A DNA stretch of 44,437 bases from Clostridia bacterium (GTDB taxonomy: Bacteria; Bacillota; Clostridia; RUG12999). The DNA is taken from positions 1 through 44,437 of the forward strand of contig JAAWTG010000020.1 in the NCBI GenBank assembly GCA_022801925.1. The letters are read 5' to 3'. The notes under the pieces were generated by a model. That model made no database searches, was not told the origin of the DNA, and saw nothing but the letters and a program-made list of their open reading frames with translations. The translations under genes and the position numbers were made by a program. Below, one piece after another: positions 5,649 to 22,630 of this stretch (position 1 is the stretch's first letter; the number at the start of each line of letters is the position of its first letter).

Positions 5649-6038
5649 ATGGCAAAAATCACAATTGCAGGAAACAGTTATGTAGTAACATCGGAAATTT
5701 CTATGGAGGATTTGGAAACGGTTAAGAAGTTCCGTCCCTCGGCTCTGGCGCTGGTAGATCCCGAAACAAAGGAAGCGCTCTTTAAGGTGGGAGTCGGCGG
5801 CAGCAGCCTGAGCGATTACGGCGTCAGCTTTGGCGGCATATCCAACGATGAAAACAAGCTGGCAACGGCAACGCTGCCGATTCCGGCAGACGTAGAGAAT
5901 GCCAAGGAATATGTCTTAGACAAGGCAGGACTGGCGATTGCAAGCTTGAACAGAATTGAAGAAAATATTTTGGAAGCGTTGAGTGAAATTCAGGCTGAAC
6001 GCAGTGCAATCACCGAAAATATTGAAGTAATTGTATAA
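5649..6038 (+). CDS. Hypothetical protein, first gene of the ubiquitin-like operon (129 aa)
   Basis: The start follows GAAGGAG at 5632-5638. The N-terminal 80 residues look beta-rich (AKITIAGNSYVVTSEI, then ALALVDPETKEALFKVGVGG); the last 45 residues form an acidic helix (about 95-125). There is no catalytic motif and no Cys. It is the first gene of a unit coding a ubiquitin-like protein, an E2-like protein, a JAB peptidase and an E1, so by position it could be a substrate, adaptor or structural partner of that pathway. I do not recognise the family; PRTRC-type cassettes also have small unassigned proteins in this place. Confidence 0.75.
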   Translation: MAKITIAGNSYVVTSEISMEDLETVKKFRPSALALVDPETKEALFKVGVGGSSLSDYGVSFGGISNDENKLATATLPIPADVENAKEYVLDKAGLAIASLNRIEENILEALSEIQAERSAITENIEVIV

Positions 6039-6049
6039 AAGCACACATC

Positions 6050-6073
6050 GGAGGACTGCGGCGGCAGTCCTCC
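6050..6073 (+). other. Perfect 10-bp hairpin between the first two genes of the ubiquitin-like operon
   Basis: GGAGGACTGC and GCAGTCCTCC pair perfectly around GGCG. Only a weak T stretch follows, so it is either a leaky terminator or an RNA stability/processing element that sets the ratio of upstream to downstream products. Confidence 0.7.
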
Positions 6074-6100
6074 AAACTATTTTAAAGGAGGAAACATCAA

Positions 6101-6340
6101 ATGATTAAAGTAACGATGGGAAACAATGTAAAAAGAACAAGCGAGATATTAGACGAGAACACGACCCTGCGAGAGGCACTGGAAGCAGCGGAAATCGACT
6201 ATACGCGCGGTATGATGAACCTTGACGGCTCTACCCTTGCCCCCGGTGATTTGGATAAAACATTTGCAGACTTTGGCATTACCGAGAAATGTTATTTGTT
6301 AAACGTTGTCAAAGCAGACAATGCCGGGAACGATGTTTAA
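6101..6340 (+). CDS. Ubiquitin-like beta-grasp protein (79 aa)
   Basis: The ribosome site AAAGGAGG at 6084-6091 fixes the start. The order of elements is that of a beta-grasp fold: a first hairpin (IKVTMG...KRTSEIL), a central helix (TLREALEAAEI), then short strands (MMNLDGSTL; CYLLNVV). PRTRC protein C and YukD/TmoB-type proteins have this size and order. The C-terminus is KADNAGNDV: there is no terminal Gly-Gly, but Gly76 is followed by just three residues, so trimming by the neighbouring JAB peptidase could expose an Ala-Gly end. That trimming is speculative. Its last 20 bases overlap the next gene, implying coupled translation of modifier and E2-like partner. Confidence 0.75.
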   Translation: MIKVTMGNNVKRTSEILDENTTLREALEAAEIDYTRGMMNLDGSTLAPGDLDKTFADFGITEKCYLLNVVKADNAGNDV

Positions 6341-7757
6341 CAAGAGAATTGCCGAAACAACTCTGACGGGCGAAACAGCAGACCGGCTGTTTTCAAACAT
6401 CACTGCACAAAATGCGCCGGATCAGTCGTTTCTCGCAACCCTGCGGGCGCTTTGTTATAAACGGCTGCCGGCTGATGAATCTATCCGTCTGACGGTACTG
6501 GCGAAAAACGACGACCTAAGTCAAGCTGAGACAGCATCGCCGGCGGCATATATAAATGCGCTGATTCCAAGTGAGTTCAGAGTGCCTGCGTCATCTATCC
6601 ATAACATTGTTCTCATTTATACGCTCCGTCAGGAGGCAGGAGAAAAAATGCTGGAAACTGTCAAGGCTCATGCCGGAGCAGACAAGCGATACATGCGGAA
6701 TTATATCGGACGGGATGACCTGCGGGTTTTCTATGCGCATAAGCTGCGTGCGATGTTCTATACAGATACCGCGCAGCAAAATACAATTATATTTACCGAC
6801 AAGCTGGAATTGAAACAGTTCCATGCTTTGCAGATGATGATCCCTCAATATCTGCCGCGCTTGTTTCAGGATACGCCGCTATCACAAGATGAACTTCATT
6901 TGCTGAAAAGCGCCGGAGAGAAATCGGTTGGCGAATATGAGCGGTTGATTGAAGAATTTGCCAAAGCGATGGACATTCGCTCGGAGATTATCCGAACCAA
7001 GCTGGCAGGATTTGAAACGGCATTTGAACGGATTCGGATTGCAGAACTGAAAAACGAGGTTAGTGCATACCGGGAAGACTATGAACACTATCTTTCTATC
7101 CTGCGGGAGTTATCCCGAAAGATAGAGGAAAGGACCTATCTGCTTGCAGGAATGGAATGCGCGGTGGGCGCCCAGGCGGAACACTCGGAACTGATGGAAT
7201 ACTTTATGTGCAACAAGAATTTGAGCGTTATACAGGTGGTCGGAACTGCCGTGGAATTTGTCGTACATGGGTATGCGGATATTTATGATGAAGAAGCCTT
7301 TGCGATGTACGTGGAAAATCACAACGGCTATATGTATGCACGGATTCATTCATCCATAACGTGCAATCAAATGGAAAAGCTGTACCGCGCTATATTCAGC
7401 GAAGGCAAGTATCGGTTAAGAATGTGCGCGGCGTATACTGCGGATATGAGAAACGGGCTGAAAGCATTTTCGCACTACGAATTTCCAGCAGAAAGCAAAA
7501 CCTATTTACCGAATCCGCATATCCAGCATTACGGCTGTATCGGAAGCTATGCAGGGCGGTTTCAGGAGTATATGAAGCATAAGGACTATATAGGCGCGAT
7601 TGATCAGGCGGTAGTATCTGCGCGGAATCTGAACTTTTATGATTCCGCTGTGATTGCCGCCTTTTCGCATGACTTGTCCTGCTCTGATATCAGATGTATC
7701 GAGAGGTCGGACGGAACCTTGCTGACCCCGCCGGAAGCGATTAAGGAGCTGGAATGA
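6321..7757 (+). CDS. E2-like conjugation protein candidate with coiled-coil middle (478 aa)
   Basis: I start it at ATG 6321, inside the end of the ubiquitin-like gene; ATG 6333 and TTG 6306 are alternatives. Residues 1-185 are alpha/beta; about 190-275 are charged helices likely forming a coiled coil (KSVGEYERLIEEFAKAMDIR; SILRELSRKIEE); residues about 300-450 form a C-terminal domain. Within it, NPHI at 398-401 followed by Cys406 (HYGCIGSY), then a helix (EYMKHKDYIGAIDQAV) and an N-x-x-D element (LNFYDS), parallels the HPHI...G.CLG signature of bacterial ubiquitin-conjugating (UBC) domains. I infer Cys406 as the thioester cysteine. Its position between the modifier and the JAB and E1 genes fits. 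A structural model should decide. Confidence 0.6.
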   Translation: MPGTMFNKRIAETTLTGETADRLFSNITAQNAPDQSFLATLRALCYKRLPADESIRLTVLAKNDDLSQAETASPAAYINALIPSEFRVPASSIHNIVLIYTLRQEAGEKMLETVKAHAGADKRYMRNYIGRDDLRVFYAHKLRAMFYTDTAQQNTIIFTDKLELKQFHALQMMIPQYLPRLFQDTPLSQDELHLLKSAGEKSVGEYERLIEEFAKAMDIRSEIIRTKLAGFETAFERIRIAELKNEVSAYREDYEHYLSILRELSRKIEERTYLLAGMECAVGAQAEHSELMEYFMCNKNLSVIQVVGTAVEFVVHGYADIYDEEAFAMYVENHNGYMYARIHSSITCNQMEKLYRAIFSEGKYRLRMCAAYTADMRNGLKAFSHYEFPAESKTYLPNPHIQHYGCIGSYAGRFQEYMKHKDYIGAIDQAVVSARNLNFYDSAVIAAFSHDLSCSDIRCIERSDGTLLTPPEAIKELE

Positions 7758-7781
7758 ATTTTCAGATTTACAAAAAACAAT

Positions 7782-7818
7782 AACGCCGTGCCGCCGCGCA
7801 ACCGGCGGTTACGGTGTT
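7782..7818 (+). other. Intergenic hairpin between the E2-like and JAB genes
   Basis: AACGCCGT pairs with ACGGTGTT (one G-T pair), and inside it CCGCCG pairs with CGGCGG. It fills the short gap between these two genes. No T run follows on the + strand, so an mRNA processing or stability role is likelier than termination. Confidence 0.65.
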
Positions 7819-7846
7819 CAGATGACGAAAGGAGGTTGCTGCAATT

Positions 7847-8620
7847 ATGGCAAGACCAATCATAATGACAGAAGAAATGAAACAGACGGCACAAAAAGAT
7901 TTTGCCGCAATGCTGGATGGCATGAAATTGCCGGACGGCAAGCTCAACTACAGTAAGAGCTTCAAGTGCAAGGACAGCCGCGCCGTGGTATGGATTGCCG
8001 AAGCGGCATATCAGAAAATCCTCGCGCTGATTACGGCGTTTTCCGATGAAGTGGGCTGGCATGGTACGGTATCCCGCTCCGGCAAATGCGAATTTACCAT
8101 TGAGGATATATTTGTGTATCCGCAGGAGGTCACCGGCAGCACAGTCAACACCGACCAGGCGGAATATACCGCATGGCTCTACAGTCTGGATGAGGATATT
8201 TTCAGCAATATCCGTATGCAAGGGCACTCGCATGTCAATATGGGAACTACTCCGTCCGGCGTGGATAACAACCACAGACAACAGATTCTTGATCAGCTGG
8301 AATCGGATATGTTCTATATCTTTATGATTTGGAATAAACGGCTTGAAGTCCATACGCTGATTTACGATATGGTGCAAAATATTCTTTATGAAAATCAGGA
8401 TGTTGACGTGCAGTTGATGTGCGGCGAAGATGCGGAGACGTTTCTGACCGACGCACGGGAAAAGGTTCAGAAAAAAATCAATCTTAAAAAAAGCGGAAAT
8501 CGACCTCCAAAAGAGCAGACCGCATTCGACGCTGAGCTTGCGGCATTCGGCTGTTGTCATTATTTTGAGGATGACTTTTACGATCCGTATGATTTGGGAG
8601 GCGCGGCATGGAGACTTTGA
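7847..8620 (+). CDS. JAMM/JAB-domain metallo-isopeptidase (257 aa)
   Basis: The ribosome site AAAGGAGG at 7829-7836 precedes the ATG. The JAMM motif is complete and canonical: Glu68 (SDEVGWHG), His127-x-His129, Ser137 and Asp140 in GHSHVNMGTTPSGVD. The first HxH pair and Asp bind zinc and Glu68 is the general base. This is the deubiquitinase-type fold (Mov34/MPN/PAD-1; PRTRC protein A is a relative), expected to release or mature ubiquitin-like proteins. The C-terminal 80 residues are charged and then acidic-aromatic (HYFEDDFYDPYDLGG). The gene overlaps the E1 gene by 13 bases, so the two are translationally coupled. Confidence 0.92.
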   Translation: MARPIIMTEEMKQTAQKDFAAMLDGMKLPDGKLNYSKSFKCKDSRAVVWIAEAAYQKILALITAFSDEVGWHGTVSRSGKCEFTIEDIFVYPQEVTGSTVNTDQAEYTAWLYSLDEDIFSNIRMQGHSHVNMGTTPSGVDNNHRQQILDQLESDMFYIFMIWNKRLEVHTLIYDMVQNILYENQDVDVQLMCGEDAETFLTDAREKVQKKINLKKSGNRPPKEQTAFDAELAAFGCCHYFEDDFYDPYDLGGAAWRL

Positions 8621-9288
8621 ATTTAGACAAATCCTATACATTTTTTCAGCCTGAGACCTGCCGGGAACGGATTCATATTATCGGCTGCGGTTCGGTAGGC
8701 TCCACAGCGGCGGAATTGCTGGCACGGTTTGGGCTGACAAAATTAACGTTATATGATTTTGACAGCGTAGAGCCGAGAAACCTTGCAAACCAGATGTTCA
8801 GGCAGGAGCATATCGGGATGCACAAGGTCGATGCGTTAGCCGCTATGCTGACAGAAATCAATCCGGAATTAAAAGACACGCTGAAACCGGAGCCGAACGG
8901 ATACACAAACCAAAATCTGTCCGGTTATGTGTTTCTCTGTGTCGATCAGATTGAATTACGGCGCAAGATTGCGCTGCGTCACAAAAACAATCCATACATC
9001 AAGGCGATGTTCGATTTTCGTACACGCCTGACCGACGCGCAGCATTATGCCGCTGATTGGTCGGATATAAAATCGGTTGACGACTTTGTGCGCTCCATGG
9101 ATTTTACTCATAATGAAGCTGCAGAGGAAACACCGGTTTCCGCATGTCAGGTAACACTTTCCGTTGCGCCGACGGTCAGAATGATATGCTCGCTTGGGGT
9201 AACGAATTTTATTAACTTTGTTAGGGATAAAACATTGAAGAAATTTATACAAATAGATGCGTTTAATTTCATGTTAGATGCATTTTAA
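8608..9288 (+). CDS. ThiF/E1-like ubiquitin-activating enzyme (226 aa)
   Basis: A minimal ThiF-type adenylation domain: nucleotide-binding IIGCGSVGS at 24-32, LYDFDSVEPRNLANQ at 48-62 (acidic residue for ATP ribose, plus the Arg-Asn pair), and Cys180 in PVSACQ as the likely thioester cysteine. At 226 residues it resembles PRTRC ThiF proteins rather than full-length E1s and has no fused rhodanese or MoaD part. It should adenylate the C-terminus of the operon's ubiquitin-like protein and pass it to the E2-like partner. Its TAA stop lies inside the left arm of the inverted repeat bounding the RT-linked RNA element, so protein and RNA genes overlap. Confidence 0.9.
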   Translation: METLNLDKSYTFFQPETCRERIHIIGCGSVGSTAAELLARFGLTKLTLYDFDSVEPRNLANQMFRQEHIGMHKVDALAAMLTEINPELKDTLKPEPNGYTNQNLSGYVFLCVDQIELRRKIALRHKNNPYIKAMFDFRTRLTDAQHYAADWSDIKSVDDFVRSMDFTHNEAAEETPVSACQVTLSVAPTVRMICSLGVTNFINFVRDKTLKKFIQIDAFNFMLDAF

Positions 9289-9564
9289 CTTGTAATGGAT
9301 AGCGTGACGATACGCACTTTGCGGTTAAATCCAAAGTATCAAACGGTCAGTGAAAAGAGCCTTCAGGAGGAAGCTCCCTGGGGGATGCCTAGAGTTCTAC
9401 GGTCGCTTCAGAGCTGCGGGCTACTTGGAGAAACCCGCGGAACATCAGGTGTTCCAGTTAAGAAATTCAAAAAATTTATCTTGACTTTTCTTCCCGCCGG
9501 CTGTATGAATGAATCCCTTGATGCAGCGCCAGCATTTTATTTATATGTGGATTACAAGTTAAAA
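9283..9564 (+). ncRNA. Retron-like msr-msd ncRNA candidate upstream of the reverse transcriptase
   Basis: The sequence TTTTAACTTGTAAT at 9283-9296 is the perfect reverse complement of ATTACAAGTTAAAA at 9551-9564, a 14-bp inverted repeat enclosing 254 bases, like retron a1/a2. Just inside the left arm is TAGC (9300-9303), and G9302 is in the usual branch-guanosine context. The interior is packed with hairpins: 9302-9315, 9316-9337, 9357-9376, 9416-9438 (GCGGG/CCCGC), 9439-9455 (GGAACA/TGTTCC), 9456-9486, and a weaker one near 9499-9528. The right arm abuts the RT ribosome site. A 111-codon open frame here is rejected because it overlaps the RT gene and the hairpins. Branch formation and msDNA are inferred from retron biology, not seen. 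Confidence 0.7.
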
Positions 9565-9577
9565 AAAGGAGGAGTTT

Positions 9578-10717
9578 ATGCCATATATCACAATCAAACA
9601 ATCGCCGGTATACTATCAAATCAGCTTTGAGGATATGATTGCCGGCATACAGGATTTAAGCAAATATATTATGCCAAACGTAACCAATACCCGCACCTAT
9701 TGGGTAGAACGCCCGAATGATAAATTAGTGGAAAATACCGATATCGGTAGAATGATACAATTGCTGCAACGGTTCAATCAGTCAAAGGAGACTCTGTTTC
9801 AAACAGACAGAGCCTCTCTATATCATTCCTTCTATATTCCGAAAAACAGCGGAGGACTCAGACGAATTGACGCTCCGGTTCCGGAACTGATGAATGCGCT
9901 GCGGGAGCTAAAAACATTATTTGAAACACATATGTTTGCATTGTATCATACAAGCGCCTTTGCATATGTGCGCGGACGCAGTACCATTGATGCGGTAAAA
10001 CGCCATCAAAAAAATGAAAGCAAGTGGTTTCTAAAGCTGGATTTCTCCGACTTCTTCGGAAGCACAACGCCGGCGTTTGTATTGGAGATGTTTTCAAACA
10101 TCTTCCCCTTCAGCGAGATAGTGCAGTATCCCAACGGAAAAGCCGAACTTGAAAAGGCGCTGAGCTTATGCTTTCTGAATAATGGTTTGCCGCAGGGAAC
10201 GCCGATATCGCCTTTTATCACCAACGTGATGATGATTCCGATTGATCACTTTCTGAGCAACCGACTCAGGGATTTCGATAGTCGAAGGTTTGTCTATACC
10301 CGGTATGCCGATGACCTTTTGATATCCTGTAAGGTTGATTTTAACAAAGATGCTCTGCAGAAGTTTGTGGCGGATGCGCTGGCAAGATTTCATGCTCCCT
10401 TCTCCATCAAACCGGAAAAGACCCGGTACGGTTCCGCCGCCGGACGCAACTGGAATCTTGGGGTTATGCTCAATAAGGATAATCAAATCACGATAGGACA
10501 TAGAAAGAAAAAGCAGTTTAAGGCCATGCTGGATCATTATATGCATGACCGACATTCAGACGCCGCTTGGGACAGACACGACATTCAAGTGTTGAACGGG
10601 CTGATTTCCTATTACCGTATGGTGGAACGCGGATATATTGAGTATTTGCTCAAACGATACGGCGAAAAGCATGGAGCAGACATTGAGCAATGTATCAAAG
10701 CGGATTTATCTGCATGA
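9578..10717 (+). CDS. Reverse transcriptase, retron-like (379 aa)
   Basis: The start follows AAAGGAGGAG directly after the a2 repeat. RT motifs are intact: LRRIDAP at 94-100, AFAYVRGRSTIDAVKRHQ at 127-144, motif A LKLDFSDFF at 152-160, GLPQGTPISPFITN at 203-216, catalytic RYADDLLIS at 242-250, then LGVMLN near 294 and a thumb segment LNGLISYYRMVERGY. At about 380 aa without intron-maturase or endonuclease parts it fits stand-alone retron/UG-class RTs. The retron hallmark NAxxH appears only as DAVKRH and the VTG motif as NLGVMLN, so it is divergent from typical retrons. GLPQG rules out the DGR-type SQ motif. It should copy the adjacent ncRNA. Confidence 0.9.
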   Translation: MPYITIKQSPVYYQISFEDMIAGIQDLSKYIMPNVTNTRTYWVERPNDKLVENTDIGRMIQLLQRFNQSKETLFQTDRASLYHSFYIPKNSGGLRRIDAPVPELMNALRELKTLFETHMFALYHTSAFAYVRGRSTIDAVKRHQKNESKWFLKLDFSDFFGSTTPAFVLEMFSNIFPFSEIVQYPNGKAELEKALSLCFLNNGLPQGTPISPFITNVMMIPIDHFLSNRLRDFDSRRFVYTRYADDLLISCKVDFNKDALQKFVADALARFHAPFSIKPEKTRYGSAAGRNWNLGVMLNKDNQITIGHRKKKQFKAMLDHYMHDRHSDAAWDRHDIQVLNGLISYYRMVERGYIEYLLKRYGEKHGADIEQCIKADLSA

Positions 10718-10869
10718 AACCTTTTGTAATGAATATTTTGAAAAGTCAAAAGCTTCAGGCGGTTCGCTGAAGTATCAATAAGTGAGCGTGACAGCAGGCA
10801 GCCGACGGATACCGGCATCCGGGTCCGGAACTCCAGAACCGGAGGCTGGCAGAAGGTTGGCATTGAAAT

Positions 10870-11022
10870 TGTTGATAACTGGGCTGTTTTTCATAAAAGT
10901 CAGTCGGGTTATCCACAGAATCAGACGACATCGCACTGATTGCGTCTGCAGACAATGCGTCACATCTGCCTCATCTATTACTATGCAGATTACAAAATAA
11001 ACCTTGCAGATAACAAAATTAA
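10870..11022. other. Candidate replication origin: two DnaA-box-like sites and tandem repeats
   Basis: TTATCCACA at 10909-10917 is a perfect DnaA box on + and TTATCAACA (reverse complement at 10870-10878) is a one-mismatch box on -. About 65 bases on, TGCAGATTACAAAATAA (10984-11000) and TGCAGATAACAAAATTAA (11005-11022) form a direct repeat with 21-base period, iteron-like, in AT-rich DNA. A possible replication gene lies at 12995. Origin function is inference. Confidence 0.4.
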
Positions 11023-11066
11023 AAACCAATATTCATAATGTATAACCAATTCATTCAGAACTGGTG

Positions 11067-11153
11067 CTTTGCGGTTTTACCCAAAGTTATGACGCTGGGG
11101 AGCATTTCGCAAATTCTTCAGGATCCGCTCCGGGCTATCCGCCCTTCGGGATC
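11067..11153 (+). repeat. Hairpin element resembling the second hairpin of the RT-linked ncRNA
   Basis: CTTTGCGGTTTTACCCAAAGT at 11067-11087 matches CTTTGCGGTTAAATCCAAAGT at 9317-9337 in 18 of 21 positions, and both fold as the same hairpin. In both copies CTTCAGGA follows at a similar distance (44 and 49 bases from the start of the motif). It may be a decayed or second RNA element of the RT locus. No 14-bp bounding inverted repeat was found around this copy. Confidence 0.4.
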
Positions 11154-11435
11154 CTTTCCGCATTTGCTCTCCTGACAAATAAACAAGCCACTCCGAGAAC
11201 CGGTCAGCTCCGCTTCCTTCGCCGGCGGCGAAAGGAAACGAGCTGCCTTATCTCGTCATGTCTTATTATTCGCAGATTATGGATATTGGGCGTTCTGCAA
11301 AACGACCGTTATTGCGACAAAATATCCGTTATGAAAATCAGCCTTAAAAACGCTTGATTCAGGCACATTTTTATCGCAAAACGCATCGCAGAATCAACTT
11401 CGCATAACACAAACATTTTTGAGAAAGGAATCGCT

Positions 11436-14234: not shown

Positions 14235-15425
14235 TCATTTCATCAACCAGTCAAGGATATGGATTTGTTTGATTCCGTTATGAGAAGTAAGCGGCTCATT
14301 ATCCATTGTCAGCAAATATTTCGGGTTATGGTCGGAAATGCTGTCAAGCGGTTTTAATTCCCGTTCCAGCACACTGTCGTCCATAACGCTGTATGCCACC
14401 TGATAATACTCTTCTCCCTCTTCTCCGATTGCAATAAAATCAACTTCCGCATTGCCTGCTTTCCCGACATGAACCTCATAGCCCCTGCGCAAGAGTTCCA
14501 GATAGACAATATTTTCAAGAATGTGTCCTCTATCCGCTTTTTTTGTTCCCAGCAGGTAATACCGAAGCCCGATATCAACCGCATAATACTTGCCGCCTGT
14601 CGCTAAATACTGCTTTCCTTTTATATCGTACCGTTCTGCCTTATATAAAATGAAGCTGTCAATCAATGCCTGCAAATACACTTCAACGGTATTCACCGAA
14701 ATTTTATTGCCGCCTGCTGTGAGAGAATTTGCTATTTTCGTAGCTGAAACAGGATTCCCAATATTATCAAACATAAACCGCAGGATATTTCTCAAGCCCG
14801 GAACATCTGATATCTTTTTGCGAGAAACAATATCTTTGAGCACTACTGATGTGTAGATGCCGTCAAGATACATTTCAATTTCTTTTTTTGCAGACAGTTC
14901 CAATGCATATGGAAATGAACTGTTTGTGATATAATTCGTATATTTTCTCTGTAAATCCTGGGTATCTCCCTGCGCTGTCACATATTCCTTAAATGATAGG
15001 GGCAGCATCTTTATTTCAACATACCTGCCGGACAGAAGCGTTGCAAGTTCTCCGGAAAGAAGATAGGCATTGGAACCTGTGATATATAAATCAACATTCT
15101 TCTTTATAAACAATCCGTCGCAAGCCTTTTGAAATTCCGGCACATTCTGAACTTCATCCAGAAAAACATAGTTCATTTTATCGGGTTGCAAACGCTCCTG
15201 CACGTAATCATATAACTGCATATAATCTTTTAGGTCATGAAACTCCGGATCTTCCAGATTGATGGATATAATCTGAACGTCCTCTATACCGCTTCCCCTC
15301 AGATAATCGCAGTACAATTCAAATAGTGTGGATTTACCGCAGCGGCGTATCCCTGTAACAACCTTTATCAGCTGTTTATCTTTAAAACTTTTCAGCTGCT
15401 CTAAATATTCTTTTCTTTGAATCAT
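14235..15425 (-). CDS. AAA ATPase with DUF4143 domain (396 aa)
   Basis: The start is ATG at 15425 after AGAGGTG. Walker A GIRRCGKS lies at residues 25-32, Walker B YVFLDEVQ near 103, then DLYITGSNAYLLSGELATLL, the sensor segment typical of AAA_14/DUF4143 proteins. The C-terminal half has the DUF4143 winged-helix and nuclease-like end (LELLRRGYEVHVGKAGNAEV, then DFIAI). Members are common, often several per genome, with no settled function; some act as prophage or toxin-like modules. It is transcribed divergently from a 388-aa relative with the same layout. Confidence 0.92.
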   Translation of the reverse strand: MIQRKEYLEQLKSFKDKQLIKVVTGIRRCGKSTLFELYCDYLRGSGIEDVQIISINLEDPEFHDLKDYMQLYDYVQERLQPDKMNYVFLDEVQNVPEFQKACDGLFIKKNVDLYITGSNAYLLSGELATLLSGRYVEIKMLPLSFKEYVTAQGDTQDLQRKYTNYITNSSFPYALELSAKKEIEMYLDGIYTSVVLKDIVSRKKISDVPGLRNILRFMFDNIGNPVSATKIANSLTAGGNKISVNTVEVYLQALIDSFILYKAERYDIKGKQYLATGGKYYAVDIGLRYYLLGTKKADRGHILENIVYLELLRRGYEVHVGKAGNAEVDFIAIGEEGEEYYQVAYSVMDDSVLERELKPLDSISDHNPKYLLTMDNEPLTSHNGIKQIHILDWLMK

Positions 15426-15788
15426 AACAATCACCTCTATGCAATCATTTTAACATACAAAAGTATTTTTGTCAAGTTTATTAAATCAAATGAACAAATT
15501 CGACAAATTATTCGTATTTGTTCATTTTATATTATACTGTGTTACCTCCAATTTAAATAATTTTTTTAAAGAAATTTTATATAATTTTTAGGGTGGAAAG
15601 GTGGAATTCATCCACTTTCCACCCCGAAAATATAATATTTTATCATTTAGAATAGTAATAAAATTCCTTTTATTACATAGCAGGAAATGACAATAAATTT
15701 TTATCAGATATAACTTATAAAATCGGAATATTTCTATTTACAAAAGGTAAAACTTATGATATTATAGATTTATAAGGAGATGATGGCT
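15426..15788. other. AT-rich divergent promoter region with a long palindrome
   Basis: The region between the two ATPase genes is very AT-rich. At 15591-15624, GGGTGGAAAGGTGGA pairs with TCCACTTTCCACCC around ATTCA with one bulged base. A related palindrome occurs at 16984-17001. No gene is seen. Both ATPase promoters must lie here. Confidence 0.5.
15591..15624. repeat. GGTGGAA palindrome, copy 1 (putative operator)
   Basis: An almost perfect 14-bp inverted repeat built from TGGAAAGGTGGAA and its complement. It lies about 165 bases upstream of the second ATPase gene; copy 2 flanks the same gene on its other side. Confidence 0.6.
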
Positions 15789-16955
15789 ATGGTTATTCGA
15801 CAAGATTATTTATCCAAAATTCGCCCGTTTATAGGCAAGGACATTATAAAGGTATTGACTGGGGTTAGACGCGGCGGAAAGAGTGTTCTATTAGAACAAA
15901 TTCGTGATGAAATCCATAGCCCCAATACAATATTCCTTAATTTTGAGGATTTGGGAAATCAGCATTTATGTGAATATAACGCATTACACGATTATATTTG
16001 CGAAATAATCGGCAGCAATAAAGAAAAGTTTTATTTATTTTTTGATGAAATTCAAGAGGTGACTGGCTGGGAAAAGGCGATTAACTCCCTGCGTGTAAAG
16101 TTTGACGCAGACATCTATATTACCGGATCAAATTCACAGCTGCTTTCCGGCGAACTCGCCACCTATATTGCGGGGCGGTATGTATCGTTTGTTGTGTATC
16201 CCTTTTCCTATGCGGAATTTAAACAGGTAAGCAAGAACTACACCTTTGACGATTATATTCAATACGGAGGAATGCCGTTTTTGTCCAGCGTAGATTTTGC
16301 GCCTGAAATCAGCAAGAATTATTTGCAGGACGTGTTTAATTCCGTAGTACTGAAGGATATTGTAAAGCGCAATAAAATTCGTGATGTGGATCTTTTAGAA
16401 AGGATTATCTCCTATGCTCTGGCAAATGTCGGCAAAAGTTTTTCCGCAACCGGTATTTCAAAATTTTTCAAGGCAGAAAAAAGAACCGTCGCACCGGAAA
16501 CCATTTTAAATTATCTGAAAGCCTGTGAAGAGTCATTTCTGCTCTATCGGCTGAAAAGTCAAGACATCAACGGCAAAAAGATGCTGAAGGTGAATGAGAA
16601 ATATTACGTTGTAGACCATGGCTTGCGTAAAGCTGTGGTTGGGGAAAATTTAGAAAACATTGAAATTGTACTGGAAAATATGGTTGGTCTGGAACTTCTG
16701 CGCCGGGGATACAAGGTCTGTGTCGGTCGTGTAGGTGAAAAAGAAGTTGATTTTGTCGGCGAAAAGAACGGTGAAAAAATTTATTTGCAAGTGTGCTATT
16801 TTCTAAATGAAGCGTCTACTATCAAGCGAGAGTTTGGCTCGCTTTTAGAAATTAGGGACAATTATCCAAAATATGTTTTATATAAAGAGGGCACTTTTAA
16901 GGGAAATTACGAGGGCATCCCCGCGGTAAAGGTTGAGAATTGGTTATTAGGATAA
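15789..16955 (+). CDS. AAA ATPase with DUF4143 domain, second copy (388 aa)
   Basis: Of three in-frame ATGs, the one at 15789 is nine bases after AAGGAG and is preferred. Walker A GVRRGGKS is at 25-32, followed by FYLFFDEIQEV (Walker B), ADIYITGSNSQLLSGELATY and a C-terminal DUF4143 domain with LELLRRGYKVCVGRVGEKEV and DFVG. It has the same architecture as the divergent neighbour but clearly differs in sequence, so the two are old paralogues or independently acquired. The family is common in mobile elements; the function is unknown. Confidence 0.92.
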   Translation: MVIRQDYLSKIRPFIGKDIIKVLTGVRRGGKSVLLEQIRDEIHSPNTIFLNFEDLGNQHLCEYNALHDYICEIIGSNKEKFYLFFDEIQEVTGWEKAINSLRVKFDADIYITGSNSQLLSGELATYIAGRYVSFVVYPFSYAEFKQVSKNYTFDDYIQYGGMPFLSSVDFAPEISKNYLQDVFNSVVLKDIVKRNKIRDVDLLERIISYALANVGKSFSATGISKFFKAEKRTVAPETILNYLKACEESFLLYRLKSQDINGKKMLKVNEKYYVVDHGLRKAVVGENLENIEIVLENMVGLELLRRGYKVCVGRVGEKEVDFVGEKNGEKIYLQVCYFLNEASTIKREFGSLLEIRDNYPKYVLYKEGTFKGNYEGIPAVKVENWLLG

Positions 16956-21031: not shown

Positions 21032-22630
21032 ATGTCTGAATTATTAAAGGCAGTGGCATATTGCCGCTATTCCTCGCATTTACAGCGTGAGGAAAGCATT
21101 AAGGCGCAGCTTCGCGCAATTCAAAAATATACGGATGATAACGGATATATTCTGCTCGATTCCTATATTGATGAAGCGCAAAGCGCTAAAACAGATGATA
21201 GAATCGCTTTTCAGCAGCTAATGTCTGATATTAAATCGGAAAACATTAAAATCGATGCCGTTATCGTTCATAAGGGAGATAGGTTTGCGAGAAATCGCTA
21301 CGATGCGGCTATTTACAAGAATTTTTTAAAGCAGCACAACGTTAGATTGATTTCTGTCACCGAAAATCTGCAAGATAATCCGGAATCGGTCATACTTGAA
21401 AGTGTTTTGGAGGGAATGGCAGAATACTATAGCCTGAATTTACAGCGTGAAGTACGGAAAGGATTAAGGGAAAACGCCTTAGACGCAAGAGCCACAGGCG
21501 GTAAACCTCCGCTGGGCTATGATATTGACAAGTTGACGCAAAAGTTGATTATCAATGAAACAGAGGCAGAAGCGGTAAAAATGATTTTTAGAATGTATTT
21601 GGACGGATGCGGTTATTCCGAAATTATAAACGAATTAAATGCCAATGGATATAAAACCAAACGAGGGCAGACATTCGGAAAAAACAGTATAAATTCAATA
21701 TTACATAATCTGAAATACACAGGAGTTTATACATATAACCTTGTCGCGCCCAAATATAAGGGCAGTGGAAAACCTATCAGATACGGAAAAGCGGAAAACG
21801 AAAACATTATACGGATTGAGGGCGCTGTTCCGCAAATCATAAGCAAGGAAGACTTTGAGGCGGTACAGACTAAAATGAGAGAGCGGCAGCATAAGGCAGG
21901 GCGGTATAATGCAAAGGCAAACTATCTGCTATCCGGAAAAATTTACTGTGGTGAATGCGGCAGCCCTTACAGCGGAAATAAGCGCAAAGCACGCGCTGAC
22001 CATCCCGAATACATAAGCTATCGTTGTTCACGTCAGAATGGCAAAAAGAAGTGCCATAACAAAGAGATTCGCAAAGAACTGATTGAAAATACAGTCTTAA
22101 ATAGGATTTCGGATATCATATTCGACAGCAGCATAATTCCAAAAATTTTCGATACTATCAATGCGTTTATTATCGAAAAAGAAAGCAGCGTCAAGCTATC
22201 CAAAATCAATGCGGAGAACAGGCTGAAGGATATTTCCAAACAAATTGATAATTTAGTTGACGTGATTGCTAATACAGGCTCAAAAGCTGTTATAGAGCGT
22301 TTGGAGAGCCTTGAAAATGAAAAGATTGTTATTGAAGACAATATATATAGGCTTGATAGGGAATTATCAAAGAAGATGATTTCAAAAACACAACTCAAAC
22401 GGTTATTTTCAAGAGCCAAGAGCCTTTTTGAACAAGGGACGCTTGACGCAGGCAAAAAACTCATAGATTTGTTTGTGGAACGGGTAATTGTTTATAAAGA
22501 CCATATTGAAATTAAATTGAATATTCTGCCGACAGATACGCCGCCAAAAACCCAAAAGGATAAAAAAGATTCCGACGGGCTTTTTGATTTAGGAAAATTC
22601 AACGTTGTGGCAGATAGGAACGAGTATTAA
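21032..22630 (+). CDS. Large serine recombinase (integrase) of an integrative element
   Basis: A 532-aa protein after AGGAGGTGAG. The N-terminal resolvase catalytic domain begins AVAYCRYSSHLQREES, with Ser14 in the Y-x-R-x-S context as nucleophile, then HKGDRFARNRYD and EGMAEYYSLNLQREV. The recombinase domain follows (GGKPPLGYDID, then VKMIFRMYLDGCGYSEI), then a zinc ribbon (YCGECGSPYSG ... YRCSRQNGKKKC, near 305-345) and a coiled-coil C-terminal part (about 375-470). This is the PhiC31/TndX-type architecture and normal length. It is the last + gene before the tRNA-Ser pair, so it marks the likely right end of the element. Confidence 0.97.
   Translation: MSELLKAVAYCRYSSHLQREESIKAQLRAIQKYTDDNGYILLDSYIDEAQSAKTDDRIAFQQLMSDIKSENIKIDAVIVHKGDRFARNRYDAAIYKNFLKQHNVRLISVTENLQDNPESVILESVLEGMAEYYSLNLQREVRKGLRENALDARATGGKPPLGYDIDKLTQKLIINETEAEAVKMIFRMYLDGCGYSEIINELNANGYKTKRGQTFGKNSINSILHNLKYTGVYTYNLVAPKYKGSGKPIRYGKAENENIIRIEGAVPQIISKEDFEAVQTKMRERQHKAGRYNAKANYLLSGKIYCGECGSPYSGNKRKARADHPEYISYRCSRQNGKKKCHNKEIRKELIENTVLNRISDIIFDSSIIPKIFDTINAFIIEKESSVKLSKINAENRLKDISKQIDNLVDVIANTGSKAVIERLESLENEKIVIEDNIYRLDRELSKKMISKTQLKRLFSRAKSLFEQGTLDAGKKLIDLFVERVIVYKDHIEIKLNILPTDTPPKTQKDKKDSDGLFDLGKFNVVADRNEY

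Follow-up and report, generated by a model that had tools for sequence, protein, structure and literature searches.

A mostly phage-borne reverse transcriptase family with retron-like ncRNAs is linked to a ubiquitin-like conjugation cassette in Clostridia

Introduction

In known retrons, a complex of reverse transcriptase (RT), ncRNA and msDNA restrains the effector encoded next to it until a trigger arrives (PMC12548924, PMC13158370). The msDNA of retron Eco8 serves as a sensor of phage (PMC13158370). A 44,437-nt contig of a Clostridia bacterium (JAAWTG010000020.1, here called the window) carries an RT gene directly behind genes resembling a ubiquitin-like (UBL) conjugation operon. Is this RT a retron RT, and do the two gene sets belong to one system? 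A first-pass annotation, made from the sequence of the window, had reported a UBL, an E2-like protein, a JAMM peptidase, an E1, an ncRNA and an RT on one strand. It knew of no retron type partnered with a full UBL system, offered as a plausible model that msDNA or the RT-RNA complex senses infection and gates conjugation, and proposed that RT homologues be examined for UBL, JAB and E1 neighbours and for a conserved upstream inverted repeat and RNA structure. In the open-access literature that we searched, we likewise found no paper joining a retron with UBL or PRTRC genes and none on several ncRNAs per retron RT.

Results

The cassette, the RT gene and three ncRNAs span positions 5649-11289 of the window, all on the + strand and nearly gap-free (Table 1). 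Each part named in the first-pass annotation is present at the coordinates it gave. The unit had been taken to end at 10717; in fact two further complete ncRNAs follow, the first beginning 5 nt past the RT stop. The E2-like gene is present as described, except that it probably starts at the ATG at 6333 and so overlaps the stop codon of the UBL gene. To the named parts we add A129, a conserved cassette protein encoded at 5649-6038. The first-pass annotation had also not noted that there is an array of ncRNAs, that the setting is a phage one and that the RT is without the literal retron motifs. The same island holds a phage-type AAA protein (phrog_8638, 380 bits) and a large serine recombinase (21032-22630), and it adjoins housekeeping genes. 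Two AAA_14/DUF4143 ATPases in opposite orientation also lie in this island (14235-16955).

Table 1. Parts of the locus in the window, in 5' to 3' order.
Feature	Coordinates	Strand	Basis and remarks
A129, 129-aa cassette protein	5649..6038	+	conserved; AlphaFold2 pLDDT 93
UBL, 79 aa	6101..6340	+	assigned by context and sequence pattern; library matches weak
E2-like protein, PNPHI..Y.C.G	6333..7757	+	conserved His and Cys
JAMM/JAB metalloprotease	7847..8620	+	HSHx7Sx2D
E1/ThiF-like adenylating enzyme	8608..9288	+	ThiF family match; GxGxxG, Lys, Asp, conserved Cys180
ncRNA 1	9283..9564	+	a1 9283-9296, putative priming G 9297, two msr hairpins, variable msd, a2 9551-9564
Retron-type RT	9578..10717	+	LPQG and YADD; retron profile matches
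ncRNA 2	10722..10997	+	a1 TTTTGTAAT 10722-10730, G 10731, a2 ATTACAAAA 10989-10997; covariance model 43 bits
ncRNA 3	11026..11289	+	a1 CCAATATTCATAAT, G 11040, a2 ATTATGGATATTGG; covariance model 23.9 bits

The RT, which the first-pass annotation had recognised by its YADD, is retron-type by profile. It scored 189.5 bits with retron_St85 (NCBIfam NF038233) versus 79 bits with group II maturase, the former being below the curated cutoff of 235 for the St85 family. It also matched PADLOC RT_II-A (E 6e-51), and the Ec83 and Ec78 retron RTs gave the best PDB profile matches, making them its nearest solved relatives. By profile scores it groups with retron RTs and not with those of group II introns, DGRs or DRTs. 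Relatives in IMG/VR are 38-58% identical, and an alignment-based search returned about 30 MAG loci, mostly from Clostridia of gut, rumen and termite, together with further phage loci. The homologue search yielded 107 family RTs, which are separated from other retron RTs by a clean gap in family-profile score (>300 versus 100-170) and which form one monophyletic clade on a long branch (support 0.62, 107 tips).

Two retron RT motifs are altered in nearly all members of this clade. The literal region X motif NAxxH was found in 2/107 family RTs versus 47/55 control retron RTs; at the aligned position the family reads DAVKRH, with the His conserved. Literal VTG of region Y was present in 1/107 family RTs versus 35/55 controls, and here the family reads NLG and keeps the Gly. 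Each motif occurs in 14/16 validated retrons, with two deviating at each, and is thus typical rather than absolute (PMC6868368). Because the literal motifs are missing, we classify the family, until msDNA is detected, as a retron-like clade that has diverged.

We examined the linkage of cassette and RT from both ends. After removal of known duplicates, 86 RT loci had 5 kb or more of upstream sequence; all five cassette genes were present at 79 of these, and 78 had the same order and strand. None of the cassette genes was found at 50 unrelated retron RT loci. The neighbours proposed by the first-pass annotation are thus a regular feature of this RT family. Reciprocally, starting from E1, the RT was present at 76/78 loci; one exception was ended by a contig edge, and the other, L250, has a complete cassette with no RT within 10 kb. 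Two independent searches placed E1 and RT in exactly the same 4/391 genomes of the class, and the linkage holds even where RT identity falls to about 40%. Departures are few: the cassette lies far off, with extra DNA between E1 and RT, at L024, L032 and L125; it is apparently lost at L029 and partial at L147; gene order is changed at L030; and UBL was not detected at L150 and L163. About ten loci have a DUF6273 protein between E1 and RT (e.g. L026:6322-7143). The system was not found in one same-genus genome and is therefore patchy and probably mobile.

Three of the cassette proteins retain the residues expected of a conjugation system. E1 matches the Pfam ThiF family (E 2e-26), as its first description implied, and has the adenylation motifs and a conserved Cys. 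The JAMM residues H-S-H-x7-S-x2-D, already noted in the window, are complete in 91/91 homologues as well. In the E2-like protein, H398, C404 and G406 of the annotated NPHI...C motif are invariant in 11 sequences, and the H...C.G pattern occurs in 79/85 homologues. Catalytic residues are therefore retained across homologues in E1, JAB and the E2-like protein. We call the last E2-like on the strength of its conserved His and Cys. JAB, E2-like, UBL and A129 have no Pfam coverage at Pfam cutoffs. Foldseek returned no significant PDB match for the E2-like protein and none for the AlphaFold2 model of A129, and fold assignment of both through PDB was dropped; the one fold match for the E2-like protein came from a siphophage protein that is itself uncharacterised (E 3e-22). 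The 79-aa protein is probably ubiquitin-like, its beta-grasp fold being predicted from sequence pattern and context with weak library matches only. Its C-terminus reads VVKADN.. and has no Gly-Gly; in CBASS, conjugation without Gly-Gly is possible (PMC10097602).

Cassette composition varies somewhat. L004 (787-2333) and L115 (774-3138) carry duplicated or repeated genes for UBL and A129, and at L011, L012 and several other loci the two are fused into one protein. A conserved protein of about 178 aa that is not in Pfam, usually between JAB and E1, occurs at L166:6015-6548 and 29 other loci and is a possible extra cassette component.

The 282-nt element preceding the window RT is bounded by a perfect 14-bp inverted repeat, exactly as first reported, and it folds with a z-score of -2.8 (1/200 shuffles equally good). 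Across the family, an inverted repeat with arms of 8 bp or more and flanking Gs, one after the 5' arm and one before the 3' arm, was found 5' of 69/105 RTs versus 34/525 dinucleotide shuffles and is therefore not due to chance. Most best stems had both Gs even when these were not required. The arms, a1 and a2, covary: in 66 loci with 46 different 5' arms, 7.95 of 8 positions paired with the locus's own partner versus 5.04 with swapped partners, although the arms had been picked for complementarity, so that the shuffle control better shows whether they are real. All eight positions show several pair types and two-sided changes.

The msr is also structured. Hairpin 2 (GCTTC...GAAGTAACA) has two-sided changes at all six predicted pairs and was the only hairpin that RNAalifold found, because MAFFT misaligns the variable hairpin 1. 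By single-sequence folding, two hairpins of at least 4 bp occur in 113/134 msr versus 32/134 control windows. The conserved repeat and RNA structure sought upstream of the homologues are thus there, with compensatory changes. No known Rfam family matched, and the ncRNAs follow the retron plan of complementary ends, a G (invariant here) after the 5' arm, msr stem-loops and msd. These data indicate that the system resembles a retron at the level of predicted RNA architecture.

Even among relatives with alignable RT and msr, the msd is hypervariable. In RT pairs of 68-78% identity, msr were 62-87% identical and msd identity was at or slightly above the shuffled level. The sequence CTTGACTTT, which resembles a -35 element ahead of the RT gene, recurs in the msd of 5/133 primary ncRNAs, including that at 9283-9564 of the window, and in none of the shuffles. 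The first downstream ncRNAs of the window (10722-10997) and of L018 (9141-9420) both have a hairpin with TGTTGATAA / TTATCCACA, a perfect DnaA-box sequence. DnaA boxes as a general msd theme were rejected, with only 3/133 strict boxes (0.15 expected).

A covariance model of the msr (R1, built from 52 sequences) gave 191 matches, spread over 90 loci. Every match was on the RT strand, and the 50 control retron loci yielded none beyond chance level. Independently of the model, 134/158 examined matches were accompanied by an a2 arm of 7 bp or more, preceded by a G in 133/134. At least two complete ncRNA copies were present in 42 loci, with a maximum of six by strict count; L095 has eight R1 matches. 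Instead of the one msr-msd per RT usual in retrons, many loci have 2-8. Nearly half of the copies lie 5' of the RT and the rest 3', 28 of them within 60 nt of its matched end, and on phage contigs viewed as a whole the copies are concentrated near the RT and cassette. No copy passed both the covariance-model and a2 thresholds in 42/108 loci, some truncated and others diverged. The most diverged loci, L011 and L012, have no space between E1 and RT; there, short elements built to the same plan, with an inverted repeat, lie 3' of the RT. The low-scoring ncRNA 3 of the window has a 13-bp a1/a2 match and shares 77% identity with an array copy in L095 across 82 nt. Three complete tandem ncRNAs with differing msd sequences lie between E1 and RT at L006:6956-7968. 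In the host genome, a possible fourth msr on contig C62 scored 21.5 bits but lay in ordinary sequence, and we put it down to chance.

Most carriers are phage contigs of roughly 100-150 kb. A terminase-like ORF was present in 32/44 IMG/VR carrier contigs (some below the Pfam cutoff) and TraG in 0/44, and we rejected a reading of the carriers as conjugative elements on these grounds. The usual carriers are large phages of Clostridia from gut, rumen and termite; bacterial genomes sometimes have the system too. Neighbouring genes include SSB, a DnaB-type helicase, NAD-salvage genes and RNase HI, the last near the RT in nine loci and usually just downstream (e.g. L095:9783-10247). The RNase H1 of the host is important for the msDNA of retrons (PMC8989520). 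Known retrons need this host enzyme, and phages bearing RNase HI may therefore bring their own.

Discussion

Known retron complexes hold a neighbouring effector until triggered, and the only constant neighbours here are conjugation enzymes. For these reasons we prefer, tentatively and at a little under even confidence, a model in which the retron-like RT, an msr-msd array and a UBL-conjugation effector module form one functional unit gated by RT-msDNA complexes. The RT would prime at the G after a1 and convert each msd to msDNA. The resulting complexes would keep the E1/E2/UBL machinery inactive, as other retrons do with toxins, until a trigger (a rival phage or host-defence factor) acting on any msDNA frees it. 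The freed machinery would then attach UBL to a target, the JAMM protease would process or remove UBL, and several different msDNAs would widen the trigger range. Points against gating are the altered NAxxH and VTG motifs, the UBL lacking Gly-Gly, the E2-like protein and A129 lacking a PDB match, the 42/108 loci with no copy passing both ncRNA thresholds, and the cassette at L250 without an RT.

More speculatively, and with some doubt on our part, the locus could be an expandable, phage-borne retron array in which one RT uses rapidly diversifying templates, all in one orientation, to make a repertoire of different msDNAs that serve as separate baits wired to a single UBL-conjugation switch.

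The main rival of gating is that the msDNAs are active decoys soaking up host-defence or rival-phage proteins such as nucleases, SSB or methylases, which we consider somewhat unlikely. The UBL cassette would then modify or stabilise the RT-msDNA complex or the captured proteins rather than being a gated effector, a role that we hold equally unlikely. Decoys would suit a system with many templates per RT and hypervariable msd, carried by phages with terminase in 32/44 contigs. However, no recognised protein-binding motif is common to many msds, and sequence alone does not tell a decoy from gating.

Bil systems are bacterial UBL/E1/E2/JAB operons, and Bil-like systems tag virion or host proteins with UBL. 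A Bil-like cassette here could serve the phage particle or host takeover by tagging virion or host proteins, with the RT and ncRNAs setting time or dose. The phage location and the siphophage fold match of the E2-like protein are consistent with this idea, but it leaves several different templates per RT unexplained, and the system is also on bacterial MAG contigs; we consider it improbable.

It is also very improbable that two independent, functionally uncoupled systems merely share an accessory region of the phages. Both kinds do occur separately in bacteria, and extra DNA occasionally parts E1 and RT, but their near-total reciprocal linkage across divergent RTs, in one order, on one strand and in the same 4/391 genomes, argues against it. 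That msds are templates writing or matching sequence elsewhere (DGR-like pairs, recombination donors or captured spacers) would fit hypervariable msds multiplying in arrays beside alignable RT and msr, but is hardly credible given that the tested msds had only short, chance-like matches to other loci, phage records, their own genome and their own contig, similar to a reversed-sequence control.

The system shares features with several known ones. Retrons of the St85 family/type II-A and Ec83/Ec78 (type I-A) have the closest RT profiles, and, as in retrons generally (PMC6868368), the a1/a2 stem ends just before a G and msr hairpins, msd and an adjoining RT follow. Unlike in II-A and I-A retrons, the RTs form a separate clade with changed X and Y motifs, many loci have several ncRNAs per RT, and a UBL cassette takes the place of a known retron effector. 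The system does not belong to any of the numbered retron types compared here. As in bacterial class 6d operons (Iyer 2006, PMC1779556), UBL, E2-like, JAB and E1 genes form one operon, whereas the E2-like protein here keeps the His before the Cys. Unlike in bacterial UBL operons, a retron-type RT is nearly always present and only E1 falls within Pfam/NCBIfam models. By the NCBIfam cutoff, the system is not PRTRC (PRTRC_ThiF 25 bits versus a cutoff of 144.75). CBASS Cap2/Cap3 likewise combines E1/E2 and JAB in a phage-related system, but here E1 and E2 are separate proteins, there is a separate UBL, and an RT and ncRNAs are present; no cGAS-like gene was found among the annotated recurrent neighbours.

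The combination suggests that the tagging of proteins is under the control of DNA copied from RNA. It unites a reverse-transcribed sensor DNA with ubiquitin-like tagging, two immune-type machineries unpaired in the literature searched. For retrons, several templates arrayed around one RT would amount to a new principle of organisation, and gene editing would gain an RT that naturally uses more than one template. The phage home of the system reverses the usual role of retrons, which is anti-phage defence.
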